From Streptomyces sp. AM 4-1-1 (GTDB lineage Bacteria > Actinomycetota > Actinomycetes > Streptomycetales > Streptomycetaceae), in contig NZ_CP119145.1 of assembly GCF_029167625.1 (NCBI RefSeq), forward strand, positions 6,572,001 through 6,636,000: a DNA stretch of 64,000 nucleotides, read 5' to 3'. Shown here piece by piece: positions 27,748 through 45,785 of this stretch. Position numbers and translations under genes: made by a program. The first letter of the stretch is position 1. Every line of letters begins with the position of its first letter. The notes under the pieces are model-generated. The model was not told the origin of the DNA and ran no database searches. It saw nothing but the letters and a program-made list of their open reading frames with translations.

Positions 27748-27805
27748 GGCCCTGGACTCCTGGAACTCGGGAACGGCTGATGCCCGCAAGGTCTATCAAG
27801 CGGCA

Positions 27806-27839
27806 CTGACAACGCCTCGGGCGGGACCGCGATTGTCAG
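27806..27839. promoter_or_regulatory. Inverted repeat CTGACAA...TTGTCAG in a divergent promoter region
   Basis: Perfect seven-base arms (27806-27812 and 27833-27839) 20 bases apart, between the STM4015 operon and the plus-strand gene at 27904. TTGTCA- and CTGACA-like promoter elements coincide with the arms. Confidence 0.4.
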
Positions 27840-27903
27840 ACCCCCGCCGTAGCGTTTTCGTCGTGGGCGGCACAGCGGGTGCGGCCGATGAAGGGGGACG
27901 TCT

Positions 27904-28230: not shown

Positions 28231-28340
28231 CACCGCCGGGTGCGGTGCGCGGCGACGCGGTCGGGAGGGACGGGACCGTCGGAGCCGGGACGCGGGGATC
28301 AGGGACACGACGATCAGAGATCAGGGGACGGGGACAACCG

Positions 28341-29342
28341 ATGCAGTACACCACCGAATGGCGTGCCGTGGCAGCGGCGACCGGCGCGGCGGACCGCGCC
28401 GCGGCGGAGGACGGGGTGCGGCTCGCCTACCGCACCGCGGGGCTCGCGGAACCGGAACGGATCATCTGGGCGGACTCGCCCAGGTCGGCCGTGGAGGCCG
28501 TGGAGAAGCTCGTCGACGCGGGAAGCCCGGTGCGCGAGCGGGTACGCACCGTGCCCTGGGCCGAGGAGCGCCGCCGGTTGCACGACGAGCTGGGGCCGGC
28601 GGGCTGGTCGGCCCTGTGGGCGGCGACCGGGGCCCAGCTCTGGGAGACCACGGCCGCGCTCGCCGAGCGGATACGGGCCGGAGTGGTCGAGGCGCTCACC
28701 CTGCGCCCGGAGGACGCGGCGGACGTCCGGCTGGTGCTGCTGGACGCGGTGCTCGGCCAGCACGACGCGGCCTGGCTCGCGGCGTTCGACGGCCGGGGCG
28801 ATCGGCTGACCGGTCTCGCCGATGTCGCCAGGAACGCCGGCTGGTGGTGGCCGTACGAGCGTGCCGTGGTGATCAGCGAGCGGCCCGTCATCCTGCACCG
28901 CGACGAGGCGGGCCGGCTCGACCGTGGTGACGGCCCGGCGCTCGTGTATCGCGACGGTTTCGTCCTGCACGCCTGGCACGGTATGCCCGTGGCCTCCGAG
29001 TTCCTGGCCGGACTGCCGTCCCTGACTCCCGAGCGCATACGCGCCGAGGAGAACGCGGAACTGCGTCGCGTGATGTTGGAGCACTACGGCTACGACCGCT
29101 ACCTCGCCGAGTCGGGCGCCGAGCCGGTGCACCGGGACGAGACGGGCGTTCTCTGGCGGATCGCGCTGGACGGCGACGAGGACGTGGTGATGGTCGAGGT
29201 AGTCAACTCCACCCCGGAACCGGACGGTACGCACCGCGTCTACTGGCTGAGGGTTCCGCCGTCGACCAGGACGGCGAAGGACGGTGTCGCCTGGACCTTC
29301 GGGCTCGACGGCCAGGCGTACGCCCCACTGCGTCAGACGTGA
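28341..29342 (+). CDS. DUF6745 domain-containing protein
   Basis: 333 aa, soluble. The segment HRDEAGRLDRGDGPALVYRDGFVLHAWHGMPV with LTPERIRAEENAELRRVMLEHYGYDRYL resembles DUF6745 proteins, whose function is unknown. The N-terminal 130 residues are helical and Ala-rich. ATG 28341 has GGGGACGGGG upstream; the frame is open much further 5' but only as a shadow of the preceding gene. A 10-base hairpin follows the stop. Confidence 0.8.
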   Translation: MQYTTEWRAVAAATGAADRAAAEDGVRLAYRTAGLAEPERIIWADSPRSAVEAVEKLVDAGSPVRERVRTVPWAEERRRLHDELGPAGWSALWAATGAQLWETTAALAERIRAGVVEALTLRPEDAADVRLVLLDAVLGQHDAAWLAAFDGRGDRLTGLADVARNAGWWWPYERAVVISERPVILHRDEAGRLDRGDGPALVYRDGFVLHAWHGMPVASEFLAGLPSLTPERIRAEENAELRRVMLEHYGYDRYLAESGAEPVHRDETGVLWRIALDGDEDVVMVEVVNSTPEPDGTHRVYWLRVPPSTRTAKDGVAWTFGLDGQAYAPLRQT

Positions 29343-30357: not shown

Positions 30358-31536
30358 GTGACCGGTGCTGACCCCCTGCTCCCGCTCCGCGCCCGGCTGC
30401 GGGCGATACGACCCGCGGCGTTCGGAGCCGATCCCGCGGACGCCCGGATGGAGCGCATCCGGCGCTCACCCAACTTCGTCGACGGCGCGTTCCGGAATCC
30501 GGTCGGGGCCCGGATCCGTCCGTCCGCGTCGATGAGGGAGTTCGCGAAGGTCTACTTCAACAAGGAGGAGCGCGCCCTCCGGGAACCCGCCGGAACCGTG
30601 CCGGTGCACACCACCACCCTCGCCGACCTCGGAGAACCGCCGGCCGACGGACTGCGCCTCACCTGGATGGGCCATTCGAGCGTGCTCGCGGAGATCGACG
30701 GCCGACGGGTGCTCTTCGACCCGGTATGGGGTGAGCGCTGTTCACCGTTCCCCTTCGCCGGTCCCAAGAGGGTGCACCCGACACCGCTGCCGCTGGCCGC
30801 GCTCGGCCCCGTGGACGTGGTGGTCATCTCCCACGACCACTACGACCATCTCGATCTGCCGACCATCCGCGCCCTGGCACGCACGGAGACGGCCTTCGCG
30901 GTGCCGCTGGGGGTCGGCGCGCATCTGGAACGGTGGGGCGTACCCGCCGACCGGCTGTACGAGTTGGACTGGAACGAGACCGCGCGGATCGCCGGGATCA
31001 GCCTGACCGCCACCCCCGCCCGTCACTTCTGCGGGCGCGGACTGCGCAACCAGCAGCACACCCTGTGGGCCTCCTGGGCCGTGGCCGGGCCCGAACACCG
31101 GATCTACCACAGTGGTGACACGGGCTATTTCCCGGGTTTCGAGGAGATCGGGTCCGCGCACGGCCCCTTCGACGCGACGATGATCCAGATCGGCGCGTAC
31201 AGCGACTTCTGGCCGGACATCCACATGACCCCCGAGGAGGGCGTCCGCGCCCATCTGGACCTCCAGGGCGGGAAGCCGGACGGCGTCCTGCTGCCGATCC
31301 ACTGGGGGACGTTCAACCTGGCCTTCCACCCGTGGGCGGAGCCGGCCGAACGGACCATGTTCGCCGCGCACGAGGCACGTGTCGCCGTCGCGGTGCCCCG
31401 GCCGGGCGAACCGTTCGAGCCGGCCGACAGACCAGTGGTGGTCCCCTGGTGGCGACCGGTGGCCGGCCCCGCCGAGGGCGGCTGGTCCGTCTGGCCGCCC
31501 GTCGAGTCGGCCCAGCTGCGTCTCGCGGCCGACTGA
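30358..31536 (+). CDS. MBL-fold metallo-hydrolase (UlaG/NAPE-PLD-like)
   Basis: Zinc-dependent hydrolase. MGHSSVLAEIDGRRVLFDPVWG, then the metal motif ISHDHYDHLD (HxHxDH near residues 158-163), the ATPARHFCGRG histidine, HSGDTGYFPGF with the bridging Asp, and LPIHWGTFNLAFHPWAEP near the end, in the order of the NAPE-PLD-like branch. 392 aa. GTG 30358 with an AGGAG site seven bases upstream. Convergent with mbtH, whose stop lies nine bases beyond. Confidence 0.9.
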   Translation: MTGADPLLPLRARLRAIRPAAFGADPADARMERIRRSPNFVDGAFRNPVGARIRPSASMREFAKVYFNKEERALREPAGTVPVHTTTLADLGEPPADGLRLTWMGHSSVLAEIDGRRVLFDPVWGERCSPFPFAGPKRVHPTPLPLAALGPVDVVVISHDHYDHLDLPTIRALARTETAFAVPLGVGAHLERWGVPADRLYELDWNETARIAGISLTATPARHFCGRGLRNQQHTLWASWAVAGPEHRIYHSGDTGYFPGFEEIGSAHGPFDATMIQIGAYSDFWPDIHMTPEEGVRAHLDLQGGKPDGVLLPIHWGTFNLAFHPWAEPAERTMFAAHEARVAVAVPRPGEPFEPADRPVVVPWWRPVAGPAEGGWSVWPPVESAQLRLAAD

Positions 31537-31545: not shown

Positions 31546-31746
31546 TCAGGCCCGCTCGCGCAGACTGCGGGGACGCAGGTCGGTCCAGACCTCTTCGATG
31601 TGGCCGAGGCAGTCGGCCCGGGGGCCGGAGAATCCGGTGGCGGTCCAGCCGTCGGGAGGATCGCCGGCGGCGGACTCCCAGATCGAGTACTGGTCCTCGT
31701 CGTTGCGTACGACGTGGCACAGCTCCTGGGACGGTGTCGTGGTCAT
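31546..31746 (-). CDS. MbtH-family protein
   Basis: 66-residue chaperone that binds adenylation domains and is often essential for their folding and activity. The signature is VVRNDEDQYSIWE with GDPPDGW and a C-terminal EVWTDLRPRSLRE. ATG 31746 has AAGGAGA upstream and overlaps the NRPS stop. Last gene of the minus-strand half of the NRPS-PKS locus, where it would assist both adenylation domains (31743-34961 and 35864-37777). Confidence 0.95.
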   Translation of the reverse strand: MTTTPSQELCHVVRNDEDQYSIWESAAGDPPDGWTATGFSGPRADCLGHIEEVWTDLRPRSLRERA

Positions 31747-34700
31747 GATGTCTCCTTCAGGGACATGGCGTCGGGATCGGGCAGGGGCGGCAGGCGGTGG
31801 TCCGGGGTCGTCGCCAAGGACGCGAGGGCCCGGGTCATCAGCGTGACCGTGCGCGTAGCGGTGAGGGGAGAGGTCCGTGCCGGGTGGGCGCGGGTCGTCA
31901 GCGTGGCGTGGTCCGCGCTGGGGGCCCGCTGGATCTCCGTGTAGAGGGGGAACGAGGTGTGGTTGACGAAGAGCCAGTCCCCGCACTCCCGTACCGGACC
32001 CCGGTTCCTCCGGTCCAGCACCCGGAAGTCCGTGTAGGTGAGGACCGTGTGGAACAGTGGCCCCCCGTGCCATGAGGTCAATCGGGACAGTGGCACCCGA
32101 CGATGAGGCATCACGGCGCGTTCCTGCTCGAAGACCAGGCGGACCAGATCGGGCCAGCCGAGGTCGTCCGTCAACTCGGCGGTGACCGGGAAGAGGTTCA
32201 GGAACATGCCCATCACCCGGTCGCCCGCACTGTTTTCGGGGCGTACGTGCGACACGAGTCCGACGACCGGCGTGCGGTGCCCGGTGAGCGCGGCCGACGA
32301 CCACAGTTGGGCGGCCATGAAGAGCGACCGCACCGGTACCGAGAGGTCATGAGCGGTCCGCCGCAACGTCTCGAAGGTGTCCGGGGCCAGGAGAGCCGTG
32401 ACCGGTTCGCCCGCCGTGAGACGTCCTGGGCCGTCGTCGGCGACGGGGGCCGGGAGCGGCCCCGGATCGAGACCGTGGAGCCGGGCACGCCAGAACTTCT
32501 CGCTGAGCGGATCGGTCGCGGCCGACCGTTCGCGCTCCAGATGCCCCCAGGTGTCGTCCCACGCGTGTGCCGGGCTTCGCGGCTGTGGCTCGTCGCGGAT
32601 GTCCGCCCGGTAGGCGGCCAGGAGTTCCGCGCAGAGCAGAGCGAAGCTCCAGCCGTCGAGGAGCGCGTGGTGGACGACGAGCGCGAGGTGGTAGGAGCCG
32701 TCGGCGTACGGGAGCAGACGCGCGAGGAGAGGCGGTGCGGTGGTCGTGTCGATCTCGTACACCCACTCCTCACGCCACGCCCGCCGTACGTTCTCGTCCG
32801 GATCGGCCGGTAAGGGCGCCACCTCGGCGACGGAGAGAGGTATCCGCACATGTGGCCGGATGCGCTGGGCGGGTCCCCCGATCGCGTCGAGGTCGAACGA
32901 ACCGCGCAGCACCTCGTGGTGCGAGGCCAGTAGGGCGAGTGCCCGCCGCCAGGCGTCCGGGACGAGAGGACCGGTGAGCCGGACCGCCGCGAGGACCCGG
33001 TAGAGAGTGGGGTCGGTGTCGACCTCGCAGTCGTAGATGATCCCCGCCTGCGTACCGGACACCGGGTGGACGTCCGCCCCCGCTCCGCCGGGTCCCGCCC
33101 CGGCCCCGCCGGACCCCGCTCCCTCCGGCGCCGGTCCCGACGATCCCGTCGACCGGGCCATCTCCCGCACGGTCGGCGTCTCGTACAACTGCGCCACGCC
33201 GAACTCGACCCCGTGTTCGCGGGCACGGGCGACGACTCGGGTGGCCCGGATGGAATCACCGCCGAGGGCGAAGAAGTCGTCGTCGGGCCCGACCCGGGGG
33301 AGTCCCAGGACATCGGCCCAGACCGCCGCGATCGTCTCCGCGAGCGAGAACGGCGGCGTGCCGTCCGCCGCCGGGGCGACGGCTGTGGCGGTGGCGGGGG
33401 AGGAGAGGGGGGACGCGGTCTCCGGCTTCTCGGACCACGGGTCGGGGAGCGCGGACATGTCCAGCTTGCCCTGATGGGTCGTCGGCAGGACCTTCACCCC
33501 CACCACCGCCGCGGGGAGCAGATGGCGTGGCAGACGCAGGGCGAGTGCGGCCCGTACCGCCGCGGGCTCGGACGCCCCTTCGACGCCTTCGACGACGTAC
33601 GCGACGAGCGCGGGTTCGCCGTCCTCGTCCTCGCGCACCACCACGGCGGCCTCGGCGATGCCGGGCAGCGCCAGCAGGGCCACCTCCACCTCGCCCGGCT
33701 CGATCCGGAAGCCGCGCAACTGCACCTGCCGGTCCGCGCGTCCCCGGAACATGAGTTCGCCGTCCGGCGTCATCTCGGCGAGGTCGCCGGTCCGGTAGAG
33801 CCGGCCGCCGGGGACCGGTCCGTACGGGTCGGGCACGAACCGCTCCGCGGTGAGAGCGGGACGGCCCAGATAGCCGTCGGCCAACCCCGCCCCGGCGACG
33901 TGCAGTTCACCGATCTCTCCGGGCGGCACCGGCGCCAGTCGGTCGTCCAGGACGTGCAGCCGGAGATCCGGGAGCGCCACCCCCATGGGGCTGCCCGGAC
34001 GGTCGGCGTCAACGGCGGTCAGCGGCCGAAGAGTGACGTGAACGGTGGTTTCGGTGATGCCGTACATGTTGACCATCAGCGGTGAGACATCCCCGTAGGC
34101 GTCGAACCAGGGCAGCAGACGGGCCGGCCGCAGCTCCTCGCCGCCGAAGACGACCAGGCGCAGTGAGGTCGGGGGGAACGCGACGCGCCGGGCATGGGCC
34201 ATGAGGTACTGGAACGCCGACGGTGTCTGGTTGAGGACGGTGACGCGTTCCCCGGTCAGCAGTCGCCAGAACGCCTCGGGGTCGCGGGCCGTCCGGTACG
34301 GGACGATCACCAGCCGGCCACCGTGCAGCAACGCGCCCCAGATCTCCCACACGGAGAAGTCGAAGGCGAAGGAATGGAACGCGCTCCACACGTCGTCGGC
34401 GGTGATGCCCAGGGGCTCACGGGTCTGCTCGAAGAGCCGTACGGCGTTCGCGTGGGTGATCACCACGCCCTTGGGCGGCCCCGTGGAGCCCGAGGTGTGG
34501 ATCACATACATCGTGTCCCGCGGATCGGGTGTCACGTCGAGATCGTGCGTGGGGGCGTCGGCGACCGACGCCCGGCCCATGTCGACGAACTCGGTGCCGG
34601 GCGCCGCGACCGACGAGCCGTACCGGGGGTCCCCGACGACGAGGGACAGCGCGCAGTCGTCGATGATGTGGTGGAGTCGGCTCGTGGGGTAGTCGGGGTC

Positions 34701-34961
34701 CAGCGGTACGTATCCGCTGCCCGTCTTGAGCACCGCGAGCAGAGCGATGACGAAGTCGGCGCCGCGGCCGGCCATGACGCCGACCAGGGAACCGGGACGA
34801 GCGCCCCGTTCCCGCAGATGGTGCGCCAGCCGATTCGCGGCCTGGTTGAGCTCGCCGTAGGAGAGGGTGCGACCGCCGTCGGTCAGGGCGCCCCGGTCGC
34901 CGTCCTCGGCGGCCCGGTGTTCGAATCCGCGGTGCAGGAACTCCGGTTGTGGGTCCGTCAT
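31743..34961 (-). CDS. Nonribosomal peptide synthetase, A-T-C, predicted threonine-activating
   Basis: 1072 aa. The adenylation domain (about residues 10-520) has YVIHTSGSTGPPKGV near residue 157, NMYGITETTVHVT, YRTGDL and GRADRQVQLRGFRIEPGEVE. By motif alignment to GrsA the specificity residues read D F W N V G M V H, plus the usual Lys, one change from the classic threonine code DFWNIGMVHK. A carrier domain follows (DDDFFALGGDSIRATR, Ser near 569), then a condensation domain (about 620-1060) with intact VVHHALLDGWS near 767. The A-T-C order, with C at the end, is unusual for a stand-alone starter: the C domain would donate this threonyl group to a partner carrier, most simply the A-T protein at 35864. 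ATG 34961 has AAAGGAAA upstream. Confidence 0.93.
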   Translation of the reverse strand: MTDPQPEFLHRGFEHRAAEDGDRGALTDGGRTLSYGELNQAANRLAHHLRERGARPGSLVGVMAGRGADFVIALLAVLKTGSGYVPLDPDYPTSRLHHIIDDCALSLVVGDPRYGSSVAAPGTEFVDMGRASVADAPTHDLDVTPDPRDTMYVIHTSGSTGPPKGVVITHANAVRLFEQTREPLGITADDVWSAFHSFAFDFSVWEIWGALLHGGRLVIVPYRTARDPEAFWRLLTGERVTVLNQTPSAFQYLMAHARRVAFPPTSLRLVVFGGEELRPARLLPWFDAYGDVSPLMVNMYGITETTVHVTLRPLTAVDADRPGSPMGVALPDLRLHVLDDRLAPVPPGEIGELHVAGAGLADGYLGRPALTAERFVPDPYGPVPGGRLYRTGDLAEMTPDGELMFRGRADRQVQLRGFRIEPGEVEVALLALPGIAEAAVVVREDEDGEPALVAYVVEGVEGASEPAAVRAALALRLPRHLLPAAVVGVKVLPTTHQGKLDMSALPDPWSEKPETASPLSSPATATAVAPAADGTPPFSLAETIAAVWADVLGLPRVGPDDDFFALGGDSIRATRVVARAREHGVEFGVAQLYETPTVREMARSTGSSGPAPEGAGSGGAGAGPGGAGADVHPVSGTQAGIIYDCEVDTDPTLYRVLAAVRLTGPLVPDAWRRALALLASHHEVLRGSFDLDAIGGPAQRIRPHVRIPLSVAEVAPLPADPDENVRRAWREEWVYEIDTTTAPPLLARLLPYADGSYHLALVVHHALLDGWSFALLCAELLAAYRADIRDEPQPRSPAHAWDDTWGHLERERSAATDPLSEKFWRARLHGLDPGPLPAPVADDGPGRLTAGEPVTALLAPDTFETLRRTAHDLSVPVRSLFMAAQLWSSAALTGHRTPVVGLVSHVRPENSAGDRVMGMFLNLFPVTAELTDDLGWPDLVRLVFEQERAVMPHRRVPLSRLTSWHGGPLFHTVLTYTDFRVLDRRNRGPVRECGDWLFVNHTSFPLYTEIQRAPSADHATLTTRAHPARTSPLTATRTVTLMTRALASLATTPDHRLPPLPDPDAMSLKETS

Positions 34962-34993
34962 GCTGTTTCCTTTCGGCGCTGGGCCGGTCGTCC

Positions 34994-35677
34994 TCAGACG
35001 GCGCAGGCGGACAGGAACTGAGCCATGCTGTCGGCGGCCAGTCGGACGGCGACCATGGTCTGATCGGTCGAGGAGGACCGGCTCAGCCCTTCCTCGGCCA
35101 TCCGCAGGCACTGGTCGAGCAGTTCGGTGGGCCGCTGCTGCCAGCGCCGGAAGACGAAGACGTACTCCTCGGGCAGCTGTATCGAGAGGCGGTCGATCTC
35201 CTCGACCAGCGCGACGCAGAATTCGTGCCACGACACGAGACCGACGTACAGCCCGAGTCCCGACGCCGCCCGGTCGGCCGTGGACCCGAGCCACAGGTAG
35301 TACCACGGCATACTGCAGGCCGAGGCCGTGAGGTCCAGGGCGGTGACGGGCGGTCCGTCGTAGCGGAGGGCGGTCTCGGCCTCCCGCATCAGACGGCGCG
35401 CGTCGAGCTTCACCTGGGCGAACGCCAGATACGCGTCGGCGTCCGGCCGGGCGGAGAAGCGGGCGACGCCGGTGGCGTATCCGGTGACCTGGGCGTCCAG
35501 TGAGAGGTCGATCAGCCGGAGCAGACGCATCCAGTGCCGGGGTGTCGCCGCGTTCTTCTCGACCAGACGCATGAATTCGTTGTCACGTCCGTGAGGTGTC
35601 TCCGAACAGCGCTCCAGCAGGACTTTCACCTGCGGGAACTCCTCGGGGACGCCGCTGTGCAACCGGTCGGTATTCAT
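34994..35677 (-). CDS. Helical protein of unknown function, possibly TenA/PqqC-like
   Basis: 227 aa, predicted mainly alpha-helical. SACSMPWYYLWLGSTADRA followed by GLYVGLVSWHEFCVALVEEID resembles the LPC-x-W-x-Y-x-E-IG ... SEEF pattern of TenA/PqqC/heme-oxygenase-like folds, but the similarity is weak and I see no sure metal-ligand set. ATG 35677 has GAGGAG upstream. First gene of the minus-strand operon, 32 bases before the A-T-C NRPS, so a tailoring role (oxidation or cyclisation) is plausible but speculative. Confidence 0.75.
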   Translation of the reverse strand: MNTDRLHSGVPEEFPQVKVLLERCSETPHGRDNEFMRLVEKNAATPRHWMRLLRLIDLSLDAQVTGYATGVARFSARPDADAYLAFAQVKLDARRLMREAETALRYDGPPVTALDLTASACSMPWYYLWLGSTADRAASGLGLYVGLVSWHEFCVALVEEIDRLSIQLPEEYVFVFRRWQQRPTELLDQCLRMAEEGLSRSSSTDQTMVAVRLAADSMAQFLSACAV

Positions 35678-35704
35678 CCTCGACTCCTCGTCCGTGTGAA
35701 AACC

Positions 35705-35787
35705 GGGACGCGTTCTTCGCGTCCCTCCGTTCTCACCGTAGGAGCGTCGGCCGACAGGCGTGGAGCACGAGTACCACTTGGTGGAAC
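35705..35787. promoter_or_regulatory. Divergent promoter region of the NRPS-PKS locus with two inverted repeats
   Basis: The 186 bases between the two operons hold a perfect eight-base repeat (GGGACGCG at 35705-35712, CGCGTCCC at 35718-35725, five-base spacer) and a second palindrome at 35771-35787 (GTACCAC-TTG-GTGGAAC, 6 of 7 paired). Their position suits a shared regulator such as the IclR protein downstream, but neither resembles the repeat at that gene's own promoter. Confidence 0.45.
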
Positions 35788-35863
35788 ACCCCCGCATCGG
35801 CATGCGACGGCGGCTGCGAGGGTGGGGTCGGGAATACACCCCCGGAAAGGAAAGTGACGCATC

Positions 35864-37777
35864 ATGAATTCGACGACCGATGCATTCCGCTCCCTCGACG
35901 CGCGGCGCCGGGAACTTCTCCATGAACTCGTGGCGGAACAGGCCCGGCGCACCCCGGACGCGGTGGCCGTCACCATGGCCGACCGGCCGGACCTGACCTA
36001 CGGCGAACTCGTCGGGCGTGCCAGGGCACTCGGCCGACAACTGACGGCCGCGGGCGTCGGTCCCGAAGTGCTGGTCGGTGTCAGCATGCGGCGCGGCCCC
36101 GAACTGCTGGTGGCGCTGCTCGCGGTGGCCTTCGCGGGTGGCGCGTACGTCCCGCTCGATCCGGCGCAGCCGGCGGACCGGCTGGCCATGACGGTCGACG
36201 ACGCGCACCTACGGATTCTGCTGCTCGGGCCCGGCGGATGGGCGGGAGGTGACGCCGCCGCCGGCCCGGAGTCCCTGACGGTCCTGGACGTGAGTCACGG
36301 CGAAGCGGCGGACGGGCCGTGCGGGGTGTCCGCCGCACCGGGGAACACCCTCTACGTCATGTACACGTCCGGTTCCACCGGCCGCCCGAAAGGAGTGTCC
36401 AACAGTCACGCGGGCGTGACCGAATTCCTGCGATGGATGGTCGAAAATTATCCGCTCGACGCCGATTCCCGTGTTCTCGTGAAGACTCCGTTCGGCTTCG
36501 ACGTGTCGGTCATGGAGATTTTCTGGCCGCTGATCTGCGGTGCCCGCCTGGTGCTGGCCCATCCGGAAGGACATCACGATCCCGCGTATCTGGCCGAAGT
36601 CGTCGTCACGGCGGGAATCACCGAAGCGCTGTTCGTGCCGACGCAATTGAGCGATTTTCTCGCGGAGCCCGCGGCAGCGGGGAGCGGCGCCTTACGGCGG
36701 CTGTTCTCGATCGGCGAAGAACTGACGCCCAGCGTCGTGGAGCGTTTCACCCGGATGCTGCCGGACACCGAACTCGTCAACGCCTACGGTCCCACCGAAG
36801 CGGCGATCGTCACGCTGACGCACACGTGCGTCCCCCCGGACACCTCGACCGCACACGTACCGATCGGCCGCCCGGTCGGTCGAAACCGAGCCCATGTCCT
36901 GGCGCCCCGCGACCTGACTCCACGGGCGGACGGCGCTCCGGGCGAACTCTTCCTGTCGGGCCCCCAGGTCGCGCGCGGGTACCACCGAGGTCCGGGGCTG
37001 ACGGCGGAGCGCTTCCTTCCCAATCCCCGTTCCTGCGGCGACCCGGAACACGCGAGGCTCTACCGGACCGGTGACGTGGTCCGGGCACGTGCCGACGGCG
37101 AACTGGAATTCCTCGGCCGTGAGGACCGCCAGGTGAAGGTGCGCGGGAACCGGATCGAACTCGGTGACGTGGAAGCCGCCCTCCTGCGACTGGCCGGGGT
37201 ACGAGGCGCGGAGGCCGCGCGGCGTACCGATCCGGAGGACGGCACCCCCACGCTCGTCGCCTGGGTGGCGGGGGAGGACAGCGGGACCGGTGGCGCGGGC
37301 GGGTTGCGCAAGCAGCTCCTGGATCTGTTGCCCCGTGCCATGGTGCCCGCCCGGATCGTGACTCTGGACAGCTTCCCGGTCCTGAACAACGGCAAGCTCG
37401 ACCGTAAGGCGCTCCCCGACCCCTTCGCGACGGCCGGCCGGCCGGCCATGGCCCGGACCGCGGCGGACCCGTCCGAGGACGACCGTCCGGGAAAACACCG
37501 GGACGCGGTCATGAGGGTCTGGGGCGAACTCCTGGGCGGTGTCGCCGTCGGTCCGGACGACGCCTTCTTCGAACTGGGCGGGGACTCCGCACTGCTCCTG
37601 AGGGTTCGCGCGGAGCTCCGACGGCTGGGCTACACCGGTGTGCGCACGCTCGACCTCATCGAGTACGCCACCCCGGCCCGGCTCGGAGCCTTCCTGGCCG
37701 GGCGGACGGACCCGCGACCACCGGACGACGTCCCCTCGTGGGAGGGCGACGACCCGGACGGGAGGCCGGCCCGATGA
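35864..37777 (+). CDS. Nonribosomal peptide synthetase, A-T didomain, with in-frame TTA codon
   Basis: 637 aa. The adenylation domain has YVMYTSGSTGRPKGVS near residue 166, VNAYGPTEAAIV, YRTGDVV, GREDRQVKVRGNRIELGDVE and NNGKLDRK. Specificity residues by motif alignment read D V M L F I A I V (K), which I cannot assign to a known substrate. The carrier domain is DDAFFELGGDSALLLR (Ser near 573). Codon 277 (36692-36694) is TTA, the leucine codon read only by the bldA tRNA in Streptomyces and rare in housekeeping genes, so translation is probably limited to late growth. ATG 35864 follows GGAAAGGAAAG. The stop overlaps the PKS start (ATGA). Confidence 0.93.
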   Translation: MNSTTDAFRSLDARRRELLHELVAEQARRTPDAVAVTMADRPDLTYGELVGRARALGRQLTAAGVGPEVLVGVSMRRGPELLVALLAVAFAGGAYVPLDPAQPADRLAMTVDDAHLRILLLGPGGWAGGDAAAGPESLTVLDVSHGEAADGPCGVSAAPGNTLYVMYTSGSTGRPKGVSNSHAGVTEFLRWMVENYPLDADSRVLVKTPFGFDVSVMEIFWPLICGARLVLAHPEGHHDPAYLAEVVVTAGITEALFVPTQLSDFLAEPAAAGSGALRRLFSIGEELTPSVVERFTRMLPDTELVNAYGPTEAAIVTLTHTCVPPDTSTAHVPIGRPVGRNRAHVLAPRDLTPRADGAPGELFLSGPQVARGYHRGPGLTAERFLPNPRSCGDPEHARLYRTGDVVRARADGELEFLGREDRQVKVRGNRIELGDVEAALLRLAGVRGAEAARRTDPEDGTPTLVAWVAGEDSGTGGAGGLRKQLLDLLPRAMVPARIVTLDSFPVLNNGKLDRKALPDPFATAGRPAMARTAADPSEDDRPGKHRDAVMRVWGELLGGVAVGPDDAFFELGGDSALLLRVRAELRRLGYTGVRTLDLIEYATPARLGAFLAGRTDPRPPDDVPSWEGDDPDGRPAR

Positions 37778-40700
37778 ACGACGCCGTACTCCCCGACGGT
37801 CCGGCGGGGGAGTCCCCGGCCGGAGACATAGCGGTCATCGGCCTAGCGGGACGCTTTCCCGGCGCTGCCGACCCCGAGCGATTGTGGGAGGCGATACGGA
37901 ACGGTTCGGAGCTGATCAGCCGGCCGACCGACGAGGAGGCGCGTGAGGAGGGCGTCGGCACCGAACTGACGAGTTCCCCCGGATACGTGCCGGCCGCCGG
38001 TGTCCTCGGCGCGGTCGGGCTGTTCGACGCGCGGTTCTTCGGTATCGGCAACCGTGAGGCGGACCTGATGGACCCCCAGCACCGGCTGCTGCTGGAGTGC
38101 TGCTGGGAGGCGCTGGAGGACGCCGGCTGCGTGCCGGACTCCTTCCCCGGGCCCATCGGTGTCTTCGCCGGAACCGGCGCCTCGGACTACCGACTGCTCG
38201 ACGGCGGAACCCGCACACCCGACCTGGGAGGCGCGACCGACTTCGTCCGGCTCATCGCCAACGACCGGGACTTCGCCGTCACTCGCGTCGCCTACCGGCT
38301 GAATCTGCGCGGCCCGGCCATGACGGTGCAGACCGCCTGCTCCACGTCACTGGTCGCGGTCCACCTCGCCGCCCGTAGTCTGCTCTCCGGCGAGTGCGAG
38401 GCCGCCCTCGCCGGCGGGGTGTCGATCCGGCTTCCCCAGCGGGCCGGATACCTGCACGAACCGGGAGGCATCCTGTCGCCCGACGGCCACTGCCGACCGT
38501 TCTCGGCGGACGCCGCAGGCACCGTCCCCGGCAGCGGGGCGGGCATCGTCCTCCTCAAGCGGCTCGAAGACGCCAGGGCGAACCTCGATCACATCTACGC
38601 GGTCCTCAAGGGCTCCGCCGTCAACAACGACGGCTCTGACAAGCTGTCCTACAGCGCCCCGGGCCCCGCCGGGCAGCGTGCCGTCATCACCGCCGCCCAC
38701 ACATCCGCCGGGGTGTCGCCACGCACGATCGGGTACGTGGAGACGCACGGTACCGGCACCGCGCTGGGCGACCCGTCCGAACTGTCCGCTCTCGGCTCGG
38801 CATTCGGCACGGAGCCGGGCAACTGCCCGATCGGTTCCGTGAAGGCGAACATCGGACACCTGGACGTCGCGGCCGGAGTCACCGGGTTCATCAAGGCGGC
38901 CCTCGCACTGCACCACCGTACGGTTCCACCCGCCCTGTACTGCGATCCGCCGAACCCGGACCTCGATCTGAAGGCGTCCCCCTTCCGGCTTCCGCGCACC
39001 GCCGAGGACTGGCCCGCGTCCGACCATCCCCGCAGGGCCGCCGTCAGCTCCTTCGGCGTCGGAGGCACCAACGCCCACGCCGTCCTGGAGGAAGCCCCCG
39101 CTCCCCGGCCGGGCCGTCCCGCGCGTTCCCCCCAGCTGATCCTGCTGTCCGCACGCGGCCCCGAGGCGCTGACCCGGATGACGCGCACCATGGCCGACAC
39201 GGCGCGCGCCGTCGCGCTGCCGGCACTCGCCGGTACGCTGCTGACCGGACGCGCGGCGTTCCCGCACCGCTGGAGCGGGGTCGCCGAGAACGGGGACGAG
39301 GCCGCCGAACTGCTCTCGCGCGCGGAACCCGCCCCGGCGGCGCCCCCGGAGCCTCCCCCCGTGACCTTCCTGCTCCCCGGATTCGGAGAGCAATGGGCAG
39401 GGATGACCCGGGAGATCTACGCCTACGAGCCCGTCTTCCGCCGGGCGCTGGACTTCTGCGCGGAGACGCTTCTCCCCGGCCTCGGCCTGGACGTCCGCGA
39501 ACTCCTCAACTCGCCGCCGGAGGAGAGCGACGAGGCCGCGCACGAGATCCGCCGCACCCAGGTGGCCATGCCGGTGGTGTTCGCCGTGGAGTACTCCCTC
39601 GGCCGGCTGCTGGAACACTGGGGCGTCCGTCCCGACGCGATGCTGGGACACAGCCTCGGTGAATGCGTCGCCGCGTGCCTCGCGGGCGTCCTGTCACCGG
39701 CCGACGGACTGCGCCTGGCGATGCTGCGCGGCCGACTCGTCGGCGGTCTTCCGCCCGGACGGATGCTCAGCGTCCCCCTGCCGGGTGCGGAACTGGCCGA
39801 ACTCCTGGACGGGTCGCTGGGATTGGCGGCCGTCGTGGCACCGGACCGCAGCGTCGCCTCGGGAACGGACGACGACATCGCCCGCCTGGAGTCGCGACTG
39901 CGACGACGCGGTGTCGAGCACCGCCCGATCCCCGTCGACCGTGCGGCCCACTCCCCGGCGCTCGACCCGATACTCGGCGACTTCCGGGCGGCCGTAGCGG
40001 ATCTCCGCCTCTCCCGCCCCCGTGTGCCGTTCCTCTCCAATGTCACGGGCACCTGGATCACGGACGAGCAGGCGGTCGATCCGGACTACTGGGTGCGGCA
40101 ACTGCGGGGGACCGGACGTCTCGTGGACGCCTTCGCGACACTGACCGTGGCCGGCCCCCGGCTCCTGCTGGAGATCGGACCCGGCCGGACGCTCGGAGGG
40201 TGGGCCGCCCGCAACGGGGTGGTCGGCCGGGGGACGCGGGCATTCGCCGGTTACGGGAGGGCCCGTGACCGGGGGAGCGCCTACCGCCGCCTCCTCGTGT
40301 CGGTGGGCCGGCTCTGGGAGGCGGGAGTCGCCGTCGACCGGAACGCGCTCGACGAGGACCACCGGCAGCCCCGGCTGCCCCTGCCCACGTATCCCTTCGA
40401 ACGCACACAGCACTGGATCACGGACGCGACGGCCGACGGGACACCCACGGGCCGCCGTACCGAACCGGAAGCGGCGTCCTCCCCGGCCGGGACGACCGAA
40501 CCGGACGGCCCCGGCGACCGGGGTGCGCCCTCCGTCCCCGACGCTTCCGACGCCCCCGCCGGACCCGGCCTGGAGAAGGCCCTCGCCACGTTGTGGGGCA
40601 CGACGCTCGGCTCTCCCGGGACCGGCCCCGACGACGACTTCTTCGATCTCGGCGGAGACTCGTTGACCGCCGTCCAGCTGGCGGCGGACATCGGACGGAC

Positions 40701-41523
40701 CGTCGGACATCACGTCACGCCCCAGGACCTCCTGGCGGCTCCGACGCCACGAGCCCTGTCCGCGACCATCCGGGAGAAGGCGGACGACGGCGCGGGTGAA
40801 GGCGACGGACGGTACCGCGCCCTGACCCGCCTCCTCGGCCCGGAGCGACGGAAGAGCCCGGGACCGCCGCTCTACCTCGTGCACCCGATAGGCGGCGGAG
40901 CCCTGGTCTACCGGCCCCTCGCCGCGGCGCTCGCGGAGAGCTGTCCGACCCACGGCTTCACCGCGAGGGGCTTCGACGGCCAGGGCGGTGCGCCACGGAA
41001 GGATCTGTGCGAGATGGCGGCCGCCTACGCCGAGGAACTCCTCGCCGACCGTCCCGAAGGGGAGTTCTGGCTCGGCGGTTCGTCCTTCGGAGGCGTGGTG
41101 GCCCTCGAAATGGCACGCGTACTGCGCCTGCGCGGACGGCGACCGGCACTGACCGTCCTGCTCGACTCACCATGGCCGGGGTCGGTCCCCGCGGACGAGC
41201 GCACGTACGAGGCCCAGCGGGAGACACTGCGCGGCACGGCGTCCGAGGACGTGCTCGCCACGCTCGTCCCGCTGCGCCTCGCGCACTACGCGGCACTGTG
41301 CGGCCACCGACCGGGCGCCGCTTCCTACGACGGCCCGGTGCTGTACGTACGGGCCGGCGATCCCGAACCGGACGAGTCCGATCCGCGGTCGGAGGAATGG
41401 CGCGCGGTGGTCCCCGGCATCGACATGACCACCTCGCCGGGCGGCCACGAGTCCATGCTGCGCGAGCCCCATGTCCGTTCTCTGGCGGCGCTGCTCGCCG
41501 ACCGCGCTCCGCGCACCGGGTGA
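37774..41523 (+). CDS. Type I polyketide synthase, KS-AT-ACP-TE
   Basis: 1249 aa, one extension module with release. KS: TVQTACSTSLVAVH (Cys near 189), YVETHGTGTALGDP and KANIGHLDVAAG. AT: LGHSLGECVAACLAG (Ser near 626); the extender-selectivity segment reads VDRAAHSPALDPI, neither the standard malonyl (HAFH) nor methylmalonyl (YASH) form. ACP: DDDFFDLGGDSLTAVQL (Ser near 963). Thioesterase: YLVHPIGGGALVYRPL, GGSSFGGVVALEMA (Ser near 1104), GGHESML for the His. No KR, DH or ER, so a beta-keto product is expected. It starts at ATG 37774 within the upstream stop. With the A-T protein it forms an NRPS-to-PKS handover. Confidence 0.94.
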   Translation: MNDAVLPDGPAGESPAGDIAVIGLAGRFPGAADPERLWEAIRNGSELISRPTDEEAREEGVGTELTSSPGYVPAAGVLGAVGLFDARFFGIGNREADLMDPQHRLLLECCWEALEDAGCVPDSFPGPIGVFAGTGASDYRLLDGGTRTPDLGGATDFVRLIANDRDFAVTRVAYRLNLRGPAMTVQTACSTSLVAVHLAARSLLSGECEAALAGGVSIRLPQRAGYLHEPGGILSPDGHCRPFSADAAGTVPGSGAGIVLLKRLEDARANLDHIYAVLKGSAVNNDGSDKLSYSAPGPAGQRAVITAAHTSAGVSPRTIGYVETHGTGTALGDPSELSALGSAFGTEPGNCPIGSVKANIGHLDVAAGVTGFIKAALALHHRTVPPALYCDPPNPDLDLKASPFRLPRTAEDWPASDHPRRAAVSSFGVGGTNAHAVLEEAPAPRPGRPARSPQLILLSARGPEALTRMTRTMADTARAVALPALAGTLLTGRAAFPHRWSGVAENGDEAAELLSRAEPAPAAPPEPPPVTFLLPGFGEQWAGMTREIYAYEPVFRRALDFCAETLLPGLGLDVRELLNSPPEESDEAAHEIRRTQVAMPVVFAVEYSLGRLLEHWGVRPDAMLGHSLGECVAACLAGVLSPADGLRLAMLRGRLVGGLPPGRMLSVPLPGAELAELLDGSLGLAAVVAPDRSVASGTDDDIARLESRLRRRGVEHRPIPVDRAAHSPALDPILGDFRAAVADLRLSRPRVPFLSNVTGTWITDEQAVDPDYWVRQLRGTGRLVDAFATLTVAGPRLLLEIGPGRTLGGWAARNGVVGRGTRAFAGYGRARDRGSAYRRLLVSVGRLWEAGVAVDRNALDEDHRQPRLPLPTYPFERTQHWITDATADGTPTGRRTEPEAASSPAGTTEPDGPGDRGAPSVPDASDAPAGPGLEKALATLWGTTLGSPGTGPDDDFFDLGGDSLTAVQLAADIGRTVGHHVTPQDLLAAPTPRALSATIREKADDGAGEGDGRYRALTRLLGPERRKSPGPPLYLVHPIGGGALVYRPLAAALAESCPTHGFTARGFDGQGGAPRKDLCEMAAAYAEELLADRPEGEFWLGGSSFGGVVALEMARVLRLRGRRPALTVLLDSPWPGSVPADERTYEAQRETLRGTASEDVLATLVPLRLAHYAALCGHRPGAASYDGPVLYVRAGDPEPDESDPRSEEWRAVVPGIDMTTSPGGHESMLREPHVRSLAALLADRAPRTG

Positions 41524-41620
41524 TCCCGGCGGGGTCGGGAAGGAAAAGTGCCTTTCCGTCACACGTGTCACAGGAATGGTCTATTTCCTCAAGCCGACCA
41601 CATGAACGCGCATCGGTGTC

Positions 41621-41660
41621 GAATGGGATACGGTACGGTAATATCGGCCGGATACCATTC
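41621..41660. promoter_or_regulatory. Long inverted repeat around a TAATAT box upstream of the IclR gene
   Basis: Arms 41621-41633 (GAATGGGATACGG) and 41648-41660 (CCGGATACCATTC) match at 11 of 13 positions; the 14-base centre contains TAATAT, a good -10 hexamer. This is a likely operator over the regulator's own promoter. The surrounding 41524-41757 gap holds nothing else convincing. Confidence 0.6.
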
Positions 41661-41757
41661 TCGCGAAAGCGAAAGAACGGATGAAGAGTGGATCACTTCT
41701 CGCATCCTTCGCAGTCCTAGGGGCTCGTGGCCATGATGATCGAAAAATGGAAGCTCA

Positions 41758-42537
41758 GTGGTGGGAGAAAGCGCTTCGCCCATGGAATCGCCTGCCGGGA
41801 AAGAGGGCGGGACCGGTTATATCGCACGGAAGGAATCTGGAGGTGCCGGAACGCGGACGATTGACAAAGTCGCACGGATTCTGTTGTTCGTGGCGGAGAA
41901 CGGACCGGTGAGTGCGAACGAGGCCGCGCGGCGACTCGAAATGCCGAAAACCACGGTCCATCGCATACTCAAGCGCATGGACGACCGCGGCGTGCTCTCT
42001 CACGCGGACGAGGGGCTGGTCATCGCCGGGCTGTTGAGCAGGGCCGCCGACCGGCTGCTCGTGCCCGAGGGCGACAGGCTACGGCGTATCGTGACCCCCT
42101 ATCTGGTGGATCTCTACATGGCGATGAGAATGCCCGTGGGCATGGCGGTGGCGCGCGGTGACAGGGTGGTTTTCGACGAGGTCATCCGTTCCCGGAGCCA
42201 GCAACTGCTCGCGCGCTCGGCGGAGCGGATGCTCCCCCACGCGGAGGGTGCCGCCGGCCTCCTGCTGACGGCTTATCTGGCTGAAGCGCAATCGGCGAAG
42301 GCTGATCCGGCACGCCTCGTCCAGTTCGCGGAAATACGGCGGGAATCGATGGCGGTCTCGATGGACGAGAAGAATTTCAGCTGTGCCGTCCCTGTCTACG
42401 GGAAGGGGCCACTGCCTCTCGCCGCGATCAGTATCACGGGACCGCGGAGTCCGGGAAGATCGGAAAAGGCGCGACAAGGTGTTCAGCATGTGTCCGCTCT
42501 GATCTCGGCCGATCTTCGTTCCCGAGGCGTCGGCTGA
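41758..42537 (+). CDS. IclR-family transcriptional regulator
   Basis: 259 aa. The winged HTH is at about residues 33-90 (TIDKVARILLFVAENGPVSANEAARRLEMPKTTVHRILKRM), followed by an effector domain (MRMPVGMAVARGDRVVFDEVIRS, LPHAEGAAGLLLTAYL, CAVPVYGKGPLPLAAISITGP). GTG 41758 with GGAAG upstream is used; ATG 41782 is possible. It lies 234 bases after the PKS in the same direction, and its promoter carries a long inverted repeat. The most likely local regulator of the NRPS-PKS locus. Confidence 0.88.
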   Translation: MVGESASPMESPAGKEGGTGYIARKESGGAGTRTIDKVARILLFVAENGPVSANEAARRLEMPKTTVHRILKRMDDRGVLSHADEGLVIAGLLSRAADRLLVPEGDRLRRIVTPYLVDLYMAMRMPVGMAVARGDRVVFDEVIRSRSQQLLARSAERMLPHAEGAAGLLLTAYLAEAQSAKADPARLVQFAEIRRESMAVSMDEKNFSCAVPVYGKGPLPLAAISITGPRSPGRSEKARQGVQHVSALISADLRSRGVG

Positions 42538-42878
42538 CGTCCGGTACGGCCCCCGCCGCGTGCCCGGCCCGATGCCGAGGAGCCGGGTGATGTGGGCCGT
42601 GCCGCGGCCGCGTCGGCCCGCGTGACCCCGCCGGCTCCTTGGGGCCAGCCGTAATCGGCCGTGCGTACGAGTCGCCATACCGGCGTGGGACGGATGGTGG
42701 GTAAGTTCCGGAACAGCCCACCAAGCGTCGCCCGTTCGCGACTACCGTGTGTGTCCGGAGATCAACGCTGGGCTCATCTTTCCGCGGTCGGCCCGCCGTT
42801 GACCCGTACCGGACCGACCACCGCAGGTGTCACCGCCGAACGCCGATTCCTGGTGCCCCATGTACCGAGGACGCTGAA
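42538..42878. other. Gene-free stretch before the conservon
   Basis: 341 bases between iclR and cvnA. The frame of cvnA is open back to 42747 but lacks a start with a ribosome-binding site. No repeat or terminator of note was found. Confidence 0.5.
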
Positions 42879-44957
42879 ATGTCACAACTACGCGCGCCCG
42901 AAGCGCGCACGGAACGCCGGGAGGGCGGGCGTCACGGCCGACCGGGCGCCCGTGCCCTCGCACCGGCTCCCCCCACGCCGGGTGCCGCTCGGACATCGCC
43001 CGAATCGCGGATACGCCCCCGGCTGCTGCGAAGCGCGCTGCTGCCGACCGTCGCCGCGGCGCTGAGCGGCGCCGTCGCCGTCGCCGTCACCGTCCGGGCC
43101 ACCGAGATCCGCCCCTCCGAGGAACTGTGGATCACCCTCGGCGCGTGCGGGGCGTCGGCGGTCGCCGCCGTGGTCGCGGCCTTCCTCGGTGCCAACCGGA
43201 CGGCGACCGCCGTCTTCGGACGCTGCCTGGCGCTTCGTCGCTCCAGTGCCCACGGACAGGCCGAAGTGGGGCGTCTCATGGAGCGGTTGCGCAAGGGAGA
43301 GACGGTGCCCGCCCGGCCGCCGGCCGAGCCCGCGGCCCCCGGTGGAGACGCCTTCGACCTGCTCGCACACGAAATGGCGCGCTCGCACGAGACGGCCCTG
43401 GCGGCGATCACCGAGGCGTCCCTGCCGTCCGGTGGTGACGCGGCACGGGGCGACGGGGACGCGCACCGGGTCGAGGTCTTCGTCAACCTCGCCCGACGTC
43501 TGCAGTCGCTCGTGCACCGCGAGATCCAGCTGCTCGACGAGCTGGAGCACGAGGTGGAGGATCCCGATCTGCTCAAGGGCCTCTTCCACGTCGACCACCT
43601 GGCCACCCGCATCCGCAGGCACGCGGAGAACCTCGCGGTCCTCGGCGGAGCGGTCTCCCGGCGGCAGTGGAGCAATCCGGTCAGCACGACGGAGATCCTG
43701 CGCTCGGCGATCGCGGAGGTCGAGCAGTACCCCAGGGTCAAGCTGGTGCCGCCGATCGACGGCACGCTGCGTGGACACGCCGTCGCCGACGTGATCCACC
43801 TGCTGGCCGAACTGGTGGAGAACGCGACCGTGTTCTCCTCGCCGCACACCCAGGTGCTGCTGCGCGCCCAGCGCGTCACGGCCGGGCTGGCCCTGGAGGT
43901 CGAGGACCGCGGCCTCGGTCTGCCGGTCCATGAGCAGAAGCGGATGAACGCCCTGCTCGCCGATCCCGACCAGGTCGACGTCGCGCATCTGCTCCAGGAC
44001 GGCCGGATCGGTCTCTTCGTCGTCGCGTCACTGGCACACCGCCATGGCATCGCGGTCCGGTTGCAGAGCAACATCTACGGCGGTACGCAGGCCGTGCTGG
44101 TCCTGCCACAGGCCCTGCTCGGCCCGGACGAGGACATCGCACCCACCCCTCAGCCACCGCAGCGGACGCATCAGTCACCCGCTCATCAGCAACAAGCACC
44201 GACACAGCAGGCGCACCGCCAAGAGGGCCGTCAGGCACCAGCACCGTCGCGACAACAGCAGCCGACGCCGGAAGCGGAAGTACCAACCGCGAACCCACGG
44301 CAGCGGCTCGACCATCCCCCGCGGCAGCGGAGCGCCGAGGACCGGCCCCCTCCGTCGGTCCGGCCGCCCGAAGACACACCGACCACGGCCCTCGCCGAGA
44401 CCGGGGGCGCGGGCGGCGACCCGACGAGACCGCTGCTTCCCCGGCGCACCACCCAGGAGCACCTGGCCCCACAGCTCCGGGTACCCCCAGTCCCGCGCAC
44501 GGAGGACGCCTACGCCCCGCACGACCCCGGGCTGATGGCCGCGTTCCAGCGAGGCGTCGGACTCGCCGAGTCGCAGATCGACGGGCCGGACCAGCCGGAC
44601 CGCGGCCCCGGCTCCGACCGGAGCCCTGGGCTGGACGCCCCGGACCGGACGTCATGGCCGGACCGGGGCATCGAGGGGGACCGGGACGGTCAGGAGGCGC
44701 GGCACCGTCGGCAGGCTCGGCCCGTCCCTACCGAGTGGACCGGCCGCACGGCCCAGGACGGCCTGGACGACCGGTCCGTCCCCGCGGCACCCATCGGTCC
44801 GGCCGCCCCGACGGCGTCGGCCGTCCCCGCCGCGCCCGGTGGGGACCTGCCTCCCGCCCCGCTGCCGGTGCGCGGCCGGACCCCCGGCTCCACCTGGCCC
44901 CTGCCGCTCACGGACCCCCACCAAGACCCCCGCGACGAAGACCCCTTCAAGGAGTAG
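42879..44957 (+). CDS. cvnA: Conservon histidine kinase-like protein CvnA
   Basis: Membrane sensor-kinase-like component of a Streptomyces conservon. Two hydrophobic helices lie near residues 50-73 and 84-105. A helical dimerisation-like region is followed by a HATPase fold (HLLAELVENATVFSSPHTQVLL with the N-box Asn, DRGLGLPVHEQ, GRIGLFVVASLAHRHGI). The C-terminal 270 residues are Pro/Gln/Arg-rich and disordered. ATG 42879 with GAGG upstream is chosen over an open frame 44 codons longer. 692 aa. Nitrate/sensor-type kinase activity in conservons is not firmly shown. Confidence 0.92.
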   Translation: MSQLRAPEARTERREGGRHGRPGARALAPAPPTPGAARTSPESRIRPRLLRSALLPTVAAALSGAVAVAVTVRATEIRPSEELWITLGACGASAVAAVVAAFLGANRTATAVFGRCLALRRSSAHGQAEVGRLMERLRKGETVPARPPAEPAAPGGDAFDLLAHEMARSHETALAAITEASLPSGGDAARGDGDAHRVEVFVNLARRLQSLVHREIQLLDELEHEVEDPDLLKGLFHVDHLATRIRRHAENLAVLGGAVSRRQWSNPVSTTEILRSAIAEVEQYPRVKLVPPIDGTLRGHAVADVIHLLAELVENATVFSSPHTQVLLRAQRVTAGLALEVEDRGLGLPVHEQKRMNALLADPDQVDVAHLLQDGRIGLFVVASLAHRHGIAVRLQSNIYGGTQAVLVLPQALLGPDEDIAPTPQPPQRTHQSPAHQQQAPTQQAHRQEGRQAPAPSRQQQPTPEAEVPTANPRQRLDHPPRQRSAEDRPPPSVRPPEDTPTTALAETGGAGGDPTRPLLPRRTTQEHLAPQLRVPPVPRTEDAYAPHDPGLMAAFQRGVGLAESQIDGPDQPDRGPGSDRSPGLDAPDRTSWPDRGIEGDRDGQEARHRRQARPVPTEWTGRTAQDGLDDRSVPAAPIGPAAPTASAVPAAPGGDLPPAPLPVRGRTPGSTWPLPLTDPHQDPRDEDPFKE

Positions 44958-44964
44958 ACGCACC

Positions 44965-45399
44965 ATGGCGAGCGATATGTCACCCAGTCAGGTACCTGAC
45001 CTCGACTGGCTGTTGAGCGGACTGGTCCAGCGCGTGCCGTTCACCCGCAGCGCGGTCCTGCTCTCCGCCGACGGGCTGGTCAAGTCGGTGCACGGCATGG
45101 ACGCCGACAGCGCCGACCACATGGCGGCCCTGGCAGCCGGTCTGTACTCGCTGGGCCGCAGTGCCGGTGCGAGGTTCGGCGACAACGGGGAGGTCCGCCA
45201 GGTCGTGGTCGAGCTGGCCTCGACCCTGCTGTTCGTCTCCACCGCCGGCTCCGGCACCTGTCTCGCGGTCCTGGCGGGCCGTGACGCCGACGCCGCGGTG
45301 CTCGGCTACGAGATGGCCATGCTGGTCAAGAGCGTCCGGCCCTACCTGATGACCCCCGCCAGACAGGCGGCGGGCATGCCGGGCGGCACAGGACTGTGA
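44965..45399 (+). CDS. cvnB: Conservon roadblock/LC7 protein CvnB
   Basis: 144 aa. LDWLLSGLVQRVPFTRSAVLLSADGLV is the usual start of the roadblock/LC7 domain, which binds and regulates the small GTPase of the conservon. It starts at ATG 44965 seven bases after cvnA, with CAAGGAG overlapping the cvnA stop. The stop overlaps cvnC (GTGA). Confidence 0.94.
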   Translation: MASDMSPSQVPDLDWLLSGLVQRVPFTRSAVLLSADGLVKSVHGMDADSADHMAALAAGLYSLGRSAGARFGDNGEVRQVVVELASTLLFVSTAGSGTCLAVLAGRDADAAVLGYEMAMLVKSVRPYLMTPARQAAGMPGGTGL

Positions 45400-45785
45400 A
45401 GGTGCCGGCCCCGCAGGACGGGCCGTTGCTCGACGACGCGGCCGGCCGGCTCATCCGTCCGTACACCGTGAGCGACGGCCGCACCCGGCCGACCACCGTC
45501 CTCGATCTGCTCTCGCTGGTCCTGGCCACGGGAAGTGAGCCGCGGGCTCACCCCCGTATCCACTTCGGCCCCGAACACACCGTGGCTCTCGAACTGTGCG
45601 ACGACCCCGTGTCGGTGGCCGAGATCGCCGCCCATCTGCGACTGCCCGCCGCCGTGACCAAGGTCCTCCTCTCCGACCTGGTGGACTGCGGGGCGGTCAC
45701 CGCGCACCCGCCGGCCTTCCACGACATGCCCACCGACCGTTCCCTGCTGGAGGCAGTGCTCGATGGTCTACGACGACAGCTCTGA
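45396..45785 (+). CDS. cvnC: Conservon DUF742 protein CvnC
   Basis: 129 aa. RLIRPYTVSDGRTRPTTVLDLLSLVLATG is the DUF742 start, and ALELCDDPVSVAEIAAHLRLPAAVTKVLLSDLVDCGAV a winged-helix-like region. GTG 45396 overlaps cvnB, and its 3' end overlaps cvnD by 23 bases. Exact role unknown; a membrane-complex adaptor in the conservon model. Confidence 0.94.
   Translation: MKVPAPQDGPLLDDAAGRLIRPYTVSDGRTRPTTVLDLLSLVLATGSEPRAHPRIHFGPEHTVALELCDDPVSVAEIAAHLRLPAAVTKVLLSDLVDCGAVTAHPPAFHDMPTDRSLLEAVLDGLRRQL

Follow-up and report, generated by a model that had tools for sequence, protein, structure and literature searches.

Gene content and domain organization

The window analyzed here, a stretch of 64,000 nucleotides from Streptomyces sp. 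AM 4-1-1, contains a compact locus of two divergent operons combining nonribosomal peptide synthetase (NRPS) and polyketide synthase (PKS) genes, with the following features:

31546-31746, minus strand: MbtH-like protein of 66 amino acids, an NRPS partner (PF03621, E value of 1.9e-14)
31743-34961, minus strand: A-T-C NRPS of 1,072 amino acids (Pfam, A-domain code, motifs, and homologues in four loci)
34994-35677, minus strand: TenA/heme-oxygenase-fold protein of 227 amino acids (predicted fold)
35678-35863, no strand: intergenic region separating the two divergent operons, presumed to have a shared regulatory role
35864-37777, plus strand: A-T NRPS of 637 amino acids, predicted to load the second residue (Pfam, code, and T motif)
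37774-41523, plus strand: KS-AT-ACP-TE of 1,249 amino acids, predicted to perform one C2-type extension and release (Pfam and catalytic motifs)
41758-42537, plus strand: IclR-type regulator of 259 amino acids (PF09339, E value of 7.6e-9)

Gene starts were fixed from the reading frame and upstream sequence. The minus-strand genes (TenA-like, A-T-C, and MbtH) are packed almost without gaps, and the start of the KS-AT-ACP-TE gene overlaps the end of the A-T gene. A preliminary description of this DNA had claimed six genes, all of which were found where it had placed them, and its domain set was recovered with Pfam: two A, three carrier, one C, one KS, one AT, and one TE domain, in addition to MbtH and IclR. 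The A-T-C NRPS matches AMP-binding, AMP-binding_C, PP-binding, and Condensation; the A-T NRPS matches AMP-binding and PP-binding; the PKS matches KS, AT, PP-binding, and Thioesterase; and the regulator matches the IclR HTH. KR, MT, and R domains are absent from the locus genes by Pfam. A detoxin/rimosamide-like line, which would need a KR, was rejected on this ground.

The KS motifs are intact (ACSTSL, ETHGTG, and NIGH, with Cys, His, and His present), and the same protein has the AT motif GHSLGE and the TE motifs GGSSFGG and GGHESM. Carrier motifs are found in all three synthases (GGDSI at 567 in A-T-C, GGDSA at 572 in A-T, and GGDSL in the ACP). The C domain of A-T-C has the motif HHALLDG at 764 and is atypical, as its Pfam match ends at 356/456.

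Insertion boundaries and flanking genes

The locus is flanked upstream by a metallo-beta-lactamase-fold gene (30358-31536) and downstream by a histidine kinase gene (42747-44957). The kinase gene was used as the query in 20 relatives, and the stretches of four (L154, L155, L156, and L157) were compared. The two flanking genes lie near each other in three of the four stretches, and the gap between the aligned flank parts is 0.81 kb in L155, 0.85 kb in L157, and 3.0 kb in L154, compared with ~11.6 kb in AM 4-1-1. Because the flanks are close together in these relatives, the DNA from the MbtH to the IclR gene is regarded as one inserted unit, and the limits drawn earlier (31546 and 42537) are correct. 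The IclR gene falls within this insertion. The flanking genes have no match in the four related clusters described below (L020, L021, L111, and L115; tblastn, E value of 1e-3).

The compared stretch of the fourth relative, L156 (genome G006), contains no upstream flank gene, and other PKS-like matches (KS and AT, ~6792-11235) adjoin the same histidine kinase; the site may therefore receive different biosynthetic genes. The kinase begins a conservon-like run (42747-46976; sensor kinase ATPase, DUF742, ATP-binding, and GAF proteins) that adjoins the cluster; the compared stretches of the relatives have this run and lack the cluster genes. Upstream of the cluster, radical SAM, sulfatase-like, and DUF6745 proteins are encoded at 23600-29342 and are matched in L154 and L155.

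The earlier statement that no transporter lies beside the locus also holds, as no transporter family was found in 20 flanking open reading frames (20 to 52 kb; 5 have no Pfam match at 1e-5) or in the two direct neighbors. An MFS_1 transporter gene (271-1707, by Pfam) adjoins the related cluster of Actinopolyspora biskrensis (L020).

Conservation and distribution of the cluster

Four related loci were found, two by a C-domain scan (L020 and L021) and two by whole-genome searches with an alignment of the TenA-like protein (L111 and L115). Identities of their products to the AM 4-1-1 proteins (tblastn) are 53% (KS-AT-ACP-TE), 52% (A-T), 42% (TenA-like), 50% (A-T-C), and 45% (MbtH) for L020 and 54%, 54%, 45%, 53%, and 51%, respectively, for L111 (G766, of the same genus as L020); in both, MbtH is located 3' of A-T-C. 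Values for L021 (Streptomyces sp. SID8352) are 59% over 500 residues plus 40% over 529 residues for KS-AT-ACP-TE, 45% for A-T, 41% for TenA-like, 47% for A-T-C, and 37% for IclR, with no MbtH match by tblastn; the IclR match near the cluster is also IclR by Pfam. L115 (G854) matches A-T-C at 46%, A-T at 44%, KS-AT-ACP-TE at 46%, and TenA-like at 36%, with weak matches to IclR (28%, 47 bits, near the cluster) and MbtH (33%, 40 bits, in a stretch without a Pfam match).

Genes for A-T-C, A-T, KS-AT-ACP-TE, and the TenA-like protein thus occur together in five of five loci, AM 4-1-1 included, in Streptomyces, Actinopolyspora, and presumed Amycolatopsis. Because the C domain or the TenA-like gene was the query that led to the related loci, it is the co-occurrence of the remaining genes that is informative. 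A-T-C is encoded on the strand opposite that of A-T and KS-AT-ACP-TE in every one of the five. The split over opposite strands, earlier considered unusual, is thus not peculiar to AM 4-1-1, and various splits of myxobacterial cor-like genes are mentioned in sections of PMC10979478.

Among the matches listed, relatives of the two large synthases that are ~47 to 55% identical over their length occur in Actinopolyspora, Amycolatopsis azurea, and Streptomyces filamentosus, and the A-T-C protein is 99% identical to protein P0128 of Streptomyces sp. DT24. Of 80 C-domain loci, at least 2 (L020 and L021) also carry, in the stretch examined, genes for the TenA-like protein and the PKS. The locus of Nonomuraea lactucae (L022; C domain, 37%) was rejected as a family member, having no PKS or TenA-like match. 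The PKS gene has no near match in plasmid records.

The cluster is intact and rare. In overlapping samples, each drawn from a larger group, one genome with a close TenA-like copy was found among 392 of the genus (AM 4-1-1 itself; 12 others have weak matches only, with a best E value of 4e-13), one among 394 of the class (where a weak match was also found), and one among 396 of the phylum. Such copies are present in 2 of 10 genomes of the genus to which A. biskrensis belongs, a third (G770) giving only an E value of 1e-17 and no PKS in its stretch, and in 3 of 390 of its family.

Two departures from the common gene set were observed. In L021, the AT of the KS-AT-ACP-TE protein (1651-5169) is without GHSxGE and without a Pfam AT match at 1e-5, while KS, ACP, and TE are kept; that copy may therefore need an AT in trans or be decayed. 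In L115, the TenA-like gene is followed directly on its 3' side by an additional stand-alone A domain (9895-11457), whose code, DFWCMGMVHK, is of Thr type.

A decayed or silent cluster yielding no product is highly improbable for AM 4-1-1. The degenerate AT of L021 would agree with decay, as would third-position GC in the three large open reading frames, which is on the low side (0.82 to 0.86, versus 0.85 to 0.95 for other listed open reading frames at 20 to 51 kb, although the ranges touch). Against this, the catalytic motifs of AM 4-1-1 are intact, and full-length synthase homologues with 46 to 56% identity are present in several actinobacteria.

Substrate predictions

A-domain codes were extracted by scripted motif alignment and read with the position rules for such codes. 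The first A domain, in A-T-C, has the code DFWNVGMVHK, upholding the earlier Thr-type prediction. This code is one change from DFWNIGMVHK, which is given in the Thr/Dhb section of PMC12283262 together with N-methylated Thr forms. The other four A-T-C proteins have DFWNVGMVHK or DFWCVGMVHK, so that the code is of Thr type in all five loci, and A-T-C probably loads L-Thr.

The second A domain, in A-T, has the code DVMLFIAIVK, and codes at this position vary in the other loci (DVLTFVAVAK, DVMTVIVVAK, DVWIFVAIVK, and DVVFLITVVK). Its best solved relative is linear gramicidin synthetase, which does not settle the substrate, and the code suggests a hydrophobic pocket, with nothing more specific assignable. 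HAFH and YASH at the AT selectivity site mark extender selectivity; the AT of this locus reads RAAHS there, which is neither.

Similarity to coralinone biosynthesis

The architecture of the locus is already known from coralinone. Sections of PMC10979478 describe CorA of Corallococcus exiguus SDU70 as a 5-methylpyrazinone synthase with the organization A-T-C-A-T-KS-AT-ACP-TE, which as a single protein makes coralinones in Escherichia coli BAP1 and in vitro. Leu-Val-SNAC and malonyl-CoA are converted by its KS-AT-ACP-TE portion in isolation, and the dipeptidyl β-keto acid is proposed to decarboxylate, cyclize, and oxidize spontaneously; a count of 110 myxobacterial clusters with cor-like genes, divided in various ways, is also given. 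The AM 4-1-1 locus has this minimal domain set, with no more and no fewer domains, predicting two amino acids, one C2 unit, and TE release. The preliminary description could match the locus to no described system, a conclusion that finds no support, as its domain set is identical to that given there for CorA. The two differ in that CorA is one protein, compared with three on two strands in AM 4-1-1; in that Leu is preferred by CorA, compared with a Thr-type starter code; and in the TenA-like, MbtH, and IclR partners of AM 4-1-1, CorA as described needing no TenA-like protein.

The similarity is one of architecture rather than descent. A one-protein version of 2,865 amino acids with the same domain set in the Corallococcus interemptor genome (L143) served as a stand-in for CorA itself, being CorA-like by architecture. 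In a midpoint-rooted tree of 27 chosen KS-AT rows, AM 4-1-1 belongs to a 10-row clade of actinobacterial KS-AT-ACP-TE proteins (100/99; two rows are identical) and does not group with L143, which is placed in the other half. The A-T-C protein is matched to the Corallococcus protein only to residue 728, before most of the C domain. As the KS-AT falls outside the CorA-like group, function is argued here from architecture and not from orthology: the locus appears to be of the coralinone type and may work like CorA, and it is not filed as an orthologue.

Proposed pathway and product

With a confidence slightly above even, we propose that the locus is a split coralinone-type assembly line making a 3-(1-hydroxyethyl)-5-methyl-6-R-pyrazin-2(1H)-one. 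A-T-C would load L-Thr, as its code suggests, and its terminal C domain would condense Thr with a residue X on the separate A-T protein. KS-AT-ACP would then add one unit, probably malonyl, and the TE would release the Thr-X β-keto acid. By analogy with the proposal for CorA, this acid would decarboxylate, and ring closure of the free Thr amine onto the ketone, followed by oxidation, would give the pyrazinone. The calculated [M+H]+ of the predicted product would be 169.0972 for Ala, 197.1285 for Val, and 211.1441 for Leu, taken as candidates for X. MbtH would support the A domains, IclR probably controls both divergent operons, and the TenA-like protein may be an added tailoring enzyme for ring closure or oxidation or for chemistry on the Thr part. 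The order of steps read from the genes in the preliminary description (Thr on A-T-C, a second residue on A-T, one C2 unit, and TE release) agrees with the biochemically demonstrated CorA pathway (sections of PMC10979478). The dipeptidyl β-keto product predicted there fits the CorA intermediate but stops early, the CorA end product being a 5-methylpyrazinone.

The same line could have a different outcome if the TE or the TenA-like protein directed the chain to an N-threonyl tetramic acid (the amide nitrogen attacking the thioester), to a lactone closed by the hydroxyl of Thr, or to release as an open-chain dipeptidyl methyl ketone. Such a fate is possible, though we consider it rather unlikely. 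In its favor, the TenA-like protein is present in all five loci and absent from CorA; the Thr-type starter code is invariant, so that the Thr hydroxyl may matter, and the stand-alone Thr-type A domain of L115 directly adjoins the TenA-like gene. However, CorA yields pyrazinones with the same domains (PMC10979478, in part), pyrazinone closure is chemically easy because the N-terminal amine is free, and the insertion is without a separate cyclase gene.

A further alternative is that the KS-AT-ACP-TE product is an intermediate for trans-acting NRPS partners outside the cluster, as in pepstatin biosynthesis. The pepstatin cluster, as portrayed in parts of PMC12081711, likewise encodes its NRPSs in discrete genes and has a single KS-AT-ACP gene lacking a KR, and its proteins are proposed to be used in trans and iteratively; it differs in its longer acylated peptide, the F420 reductase PepI, and a separate PepE for release. 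This alternative is quite improbable, as the AM 4-1-1 PKS carries its own TE, the edges of the insertion are sharp, and the flanking open reading frames scanned (20 to 52 kb) yielded no additional NRPS or PKS.

Trisubstituted pyrazinones are also made in Streptomyces by the ichizinone cluster (Streptomyces sp. LV45-129), which according to portions of PMC12144821 combines NRPS, type I PKS, and MbtH. Its products are tetrapeptides, it has four NRPS genes, a monooxygenase, a cyclase, and transporters, and its PKS, described there as lacking an AT, is the proposed supplier of β-amino acids.

An open-license literature search turned up no split line that starts with Thr and has a conserved TenA-like enzyme. 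If the pyrazinone proposal is correct, 5-methylpyrazinone lines, demonstrated in a myxobacterium, extend to actinobacteria in a form that starts with Thr, is divided among several proteins, and includes an additional dedicated enzyme. Pyrazinones often serve as bacterial signals (PMC10979478, in part), which makes this cluster, rare, sharply delimited, and equipped with an IclR regulator of its own, a compact test case.

The TenA-like protein

The 227-amino-acid protein is predicted to have the TenA/heme-oxygenase-like fold common to TenA, PqqC, CADD, and HDO proteins, with only 5 to 14% identity to these among the 50 matches listed. The label TenA-like used previously is consistent with the predicted fold, but the protein has no Pfam or NCBIfam match; no Pfam family is matched even at an E value of 1, PF03070 (TENA_THI-4) included. 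Three of the nine members of an alignment including TenA-like relatives (A5) match PF03070. No TenA relative was recovered from PDB sequences, whether the query was the protein itself or its alignment. In a set of 5.8 billion proteins (E value of 1e-3), the query matched only itself; this search needs shared five-residue words, and the result is not evidence of uniqueness because copies with 36 to 45% identity exist in the other four loci. An alignment search of the C. interemptor genome gave nothing at an E value of 0.01, a low-sensitivity search that shows little.

The preliminary description listed the TenA-like gene but underrated its weight, since it is present in five of five loci yet no part of CorA. 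As CorA needs no such protein, this conservation suggests extra or different chemistry. An HDO-type diiron oxidase was considered and rejected: the fold fits, but the metal motif of three His and three acids, E-H-E-H-(D/E)-H in parts of PMC11363339, is absent from the five cluster copies, in which the only invariant residues in the motif comparison are two His (48 and 151) and one acid (E195).

Distant TenA-like relatives of the AM 4-1-1 protein share regions with A-T-R genes. The A-T-R (ATRed) pyrazine synthase of Xenorhabdus indica, as outlined in sections of PMC7586950, is similarly a small NRPS releasing an amino-carbonyl compound that gives a pyrazine; it differs in its reductase-domain release and in having no PKS. 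A specific role for the TenA-like protein as a pyrazine oxidase is weakened, since the A-T-R-linked kin travel with further enzymes and CorA works without one. A broader suggestion, speculative and in our view unlikely, is that a new class of enzymes begins with the TenA-like protein, with a heme-oxygenase fold but no metal, and dedicated to the small amino-carbonyl compounds that minimal NRPSs release. Here it would close or aromatize a Thr-derived dihydropyrazinone in a PqqC-like, cofactor-free reaction with O2, and its distant kin would carry out similar ring or oxidation reactions next to A-T-R synthetases. An open-license literature search found no role assigned to a TenA-like family recurring near small NRPSs, and the gene provides a clean handle on this enzyme family.

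The AM 4-1-1 genome contains a second set of such genes at ~6.777 to 6.786 Mb (G000:C1; L114, 4676-12851), with an A-T-R NRPS, a TenA-like paralogue, an FAD-type oxidoreductase, a HisF-like protein, and an ADH encoded together in a single run. Comparable sets are found again in other regions of the genus and of that of A. biskrensis: TenA-like and FAD-type genes occur together in 11 of 18 regions, a count that leaves out two more distant TenA-like matches on G102:C673, and 8 of the 18 also have a HisF-like gene.
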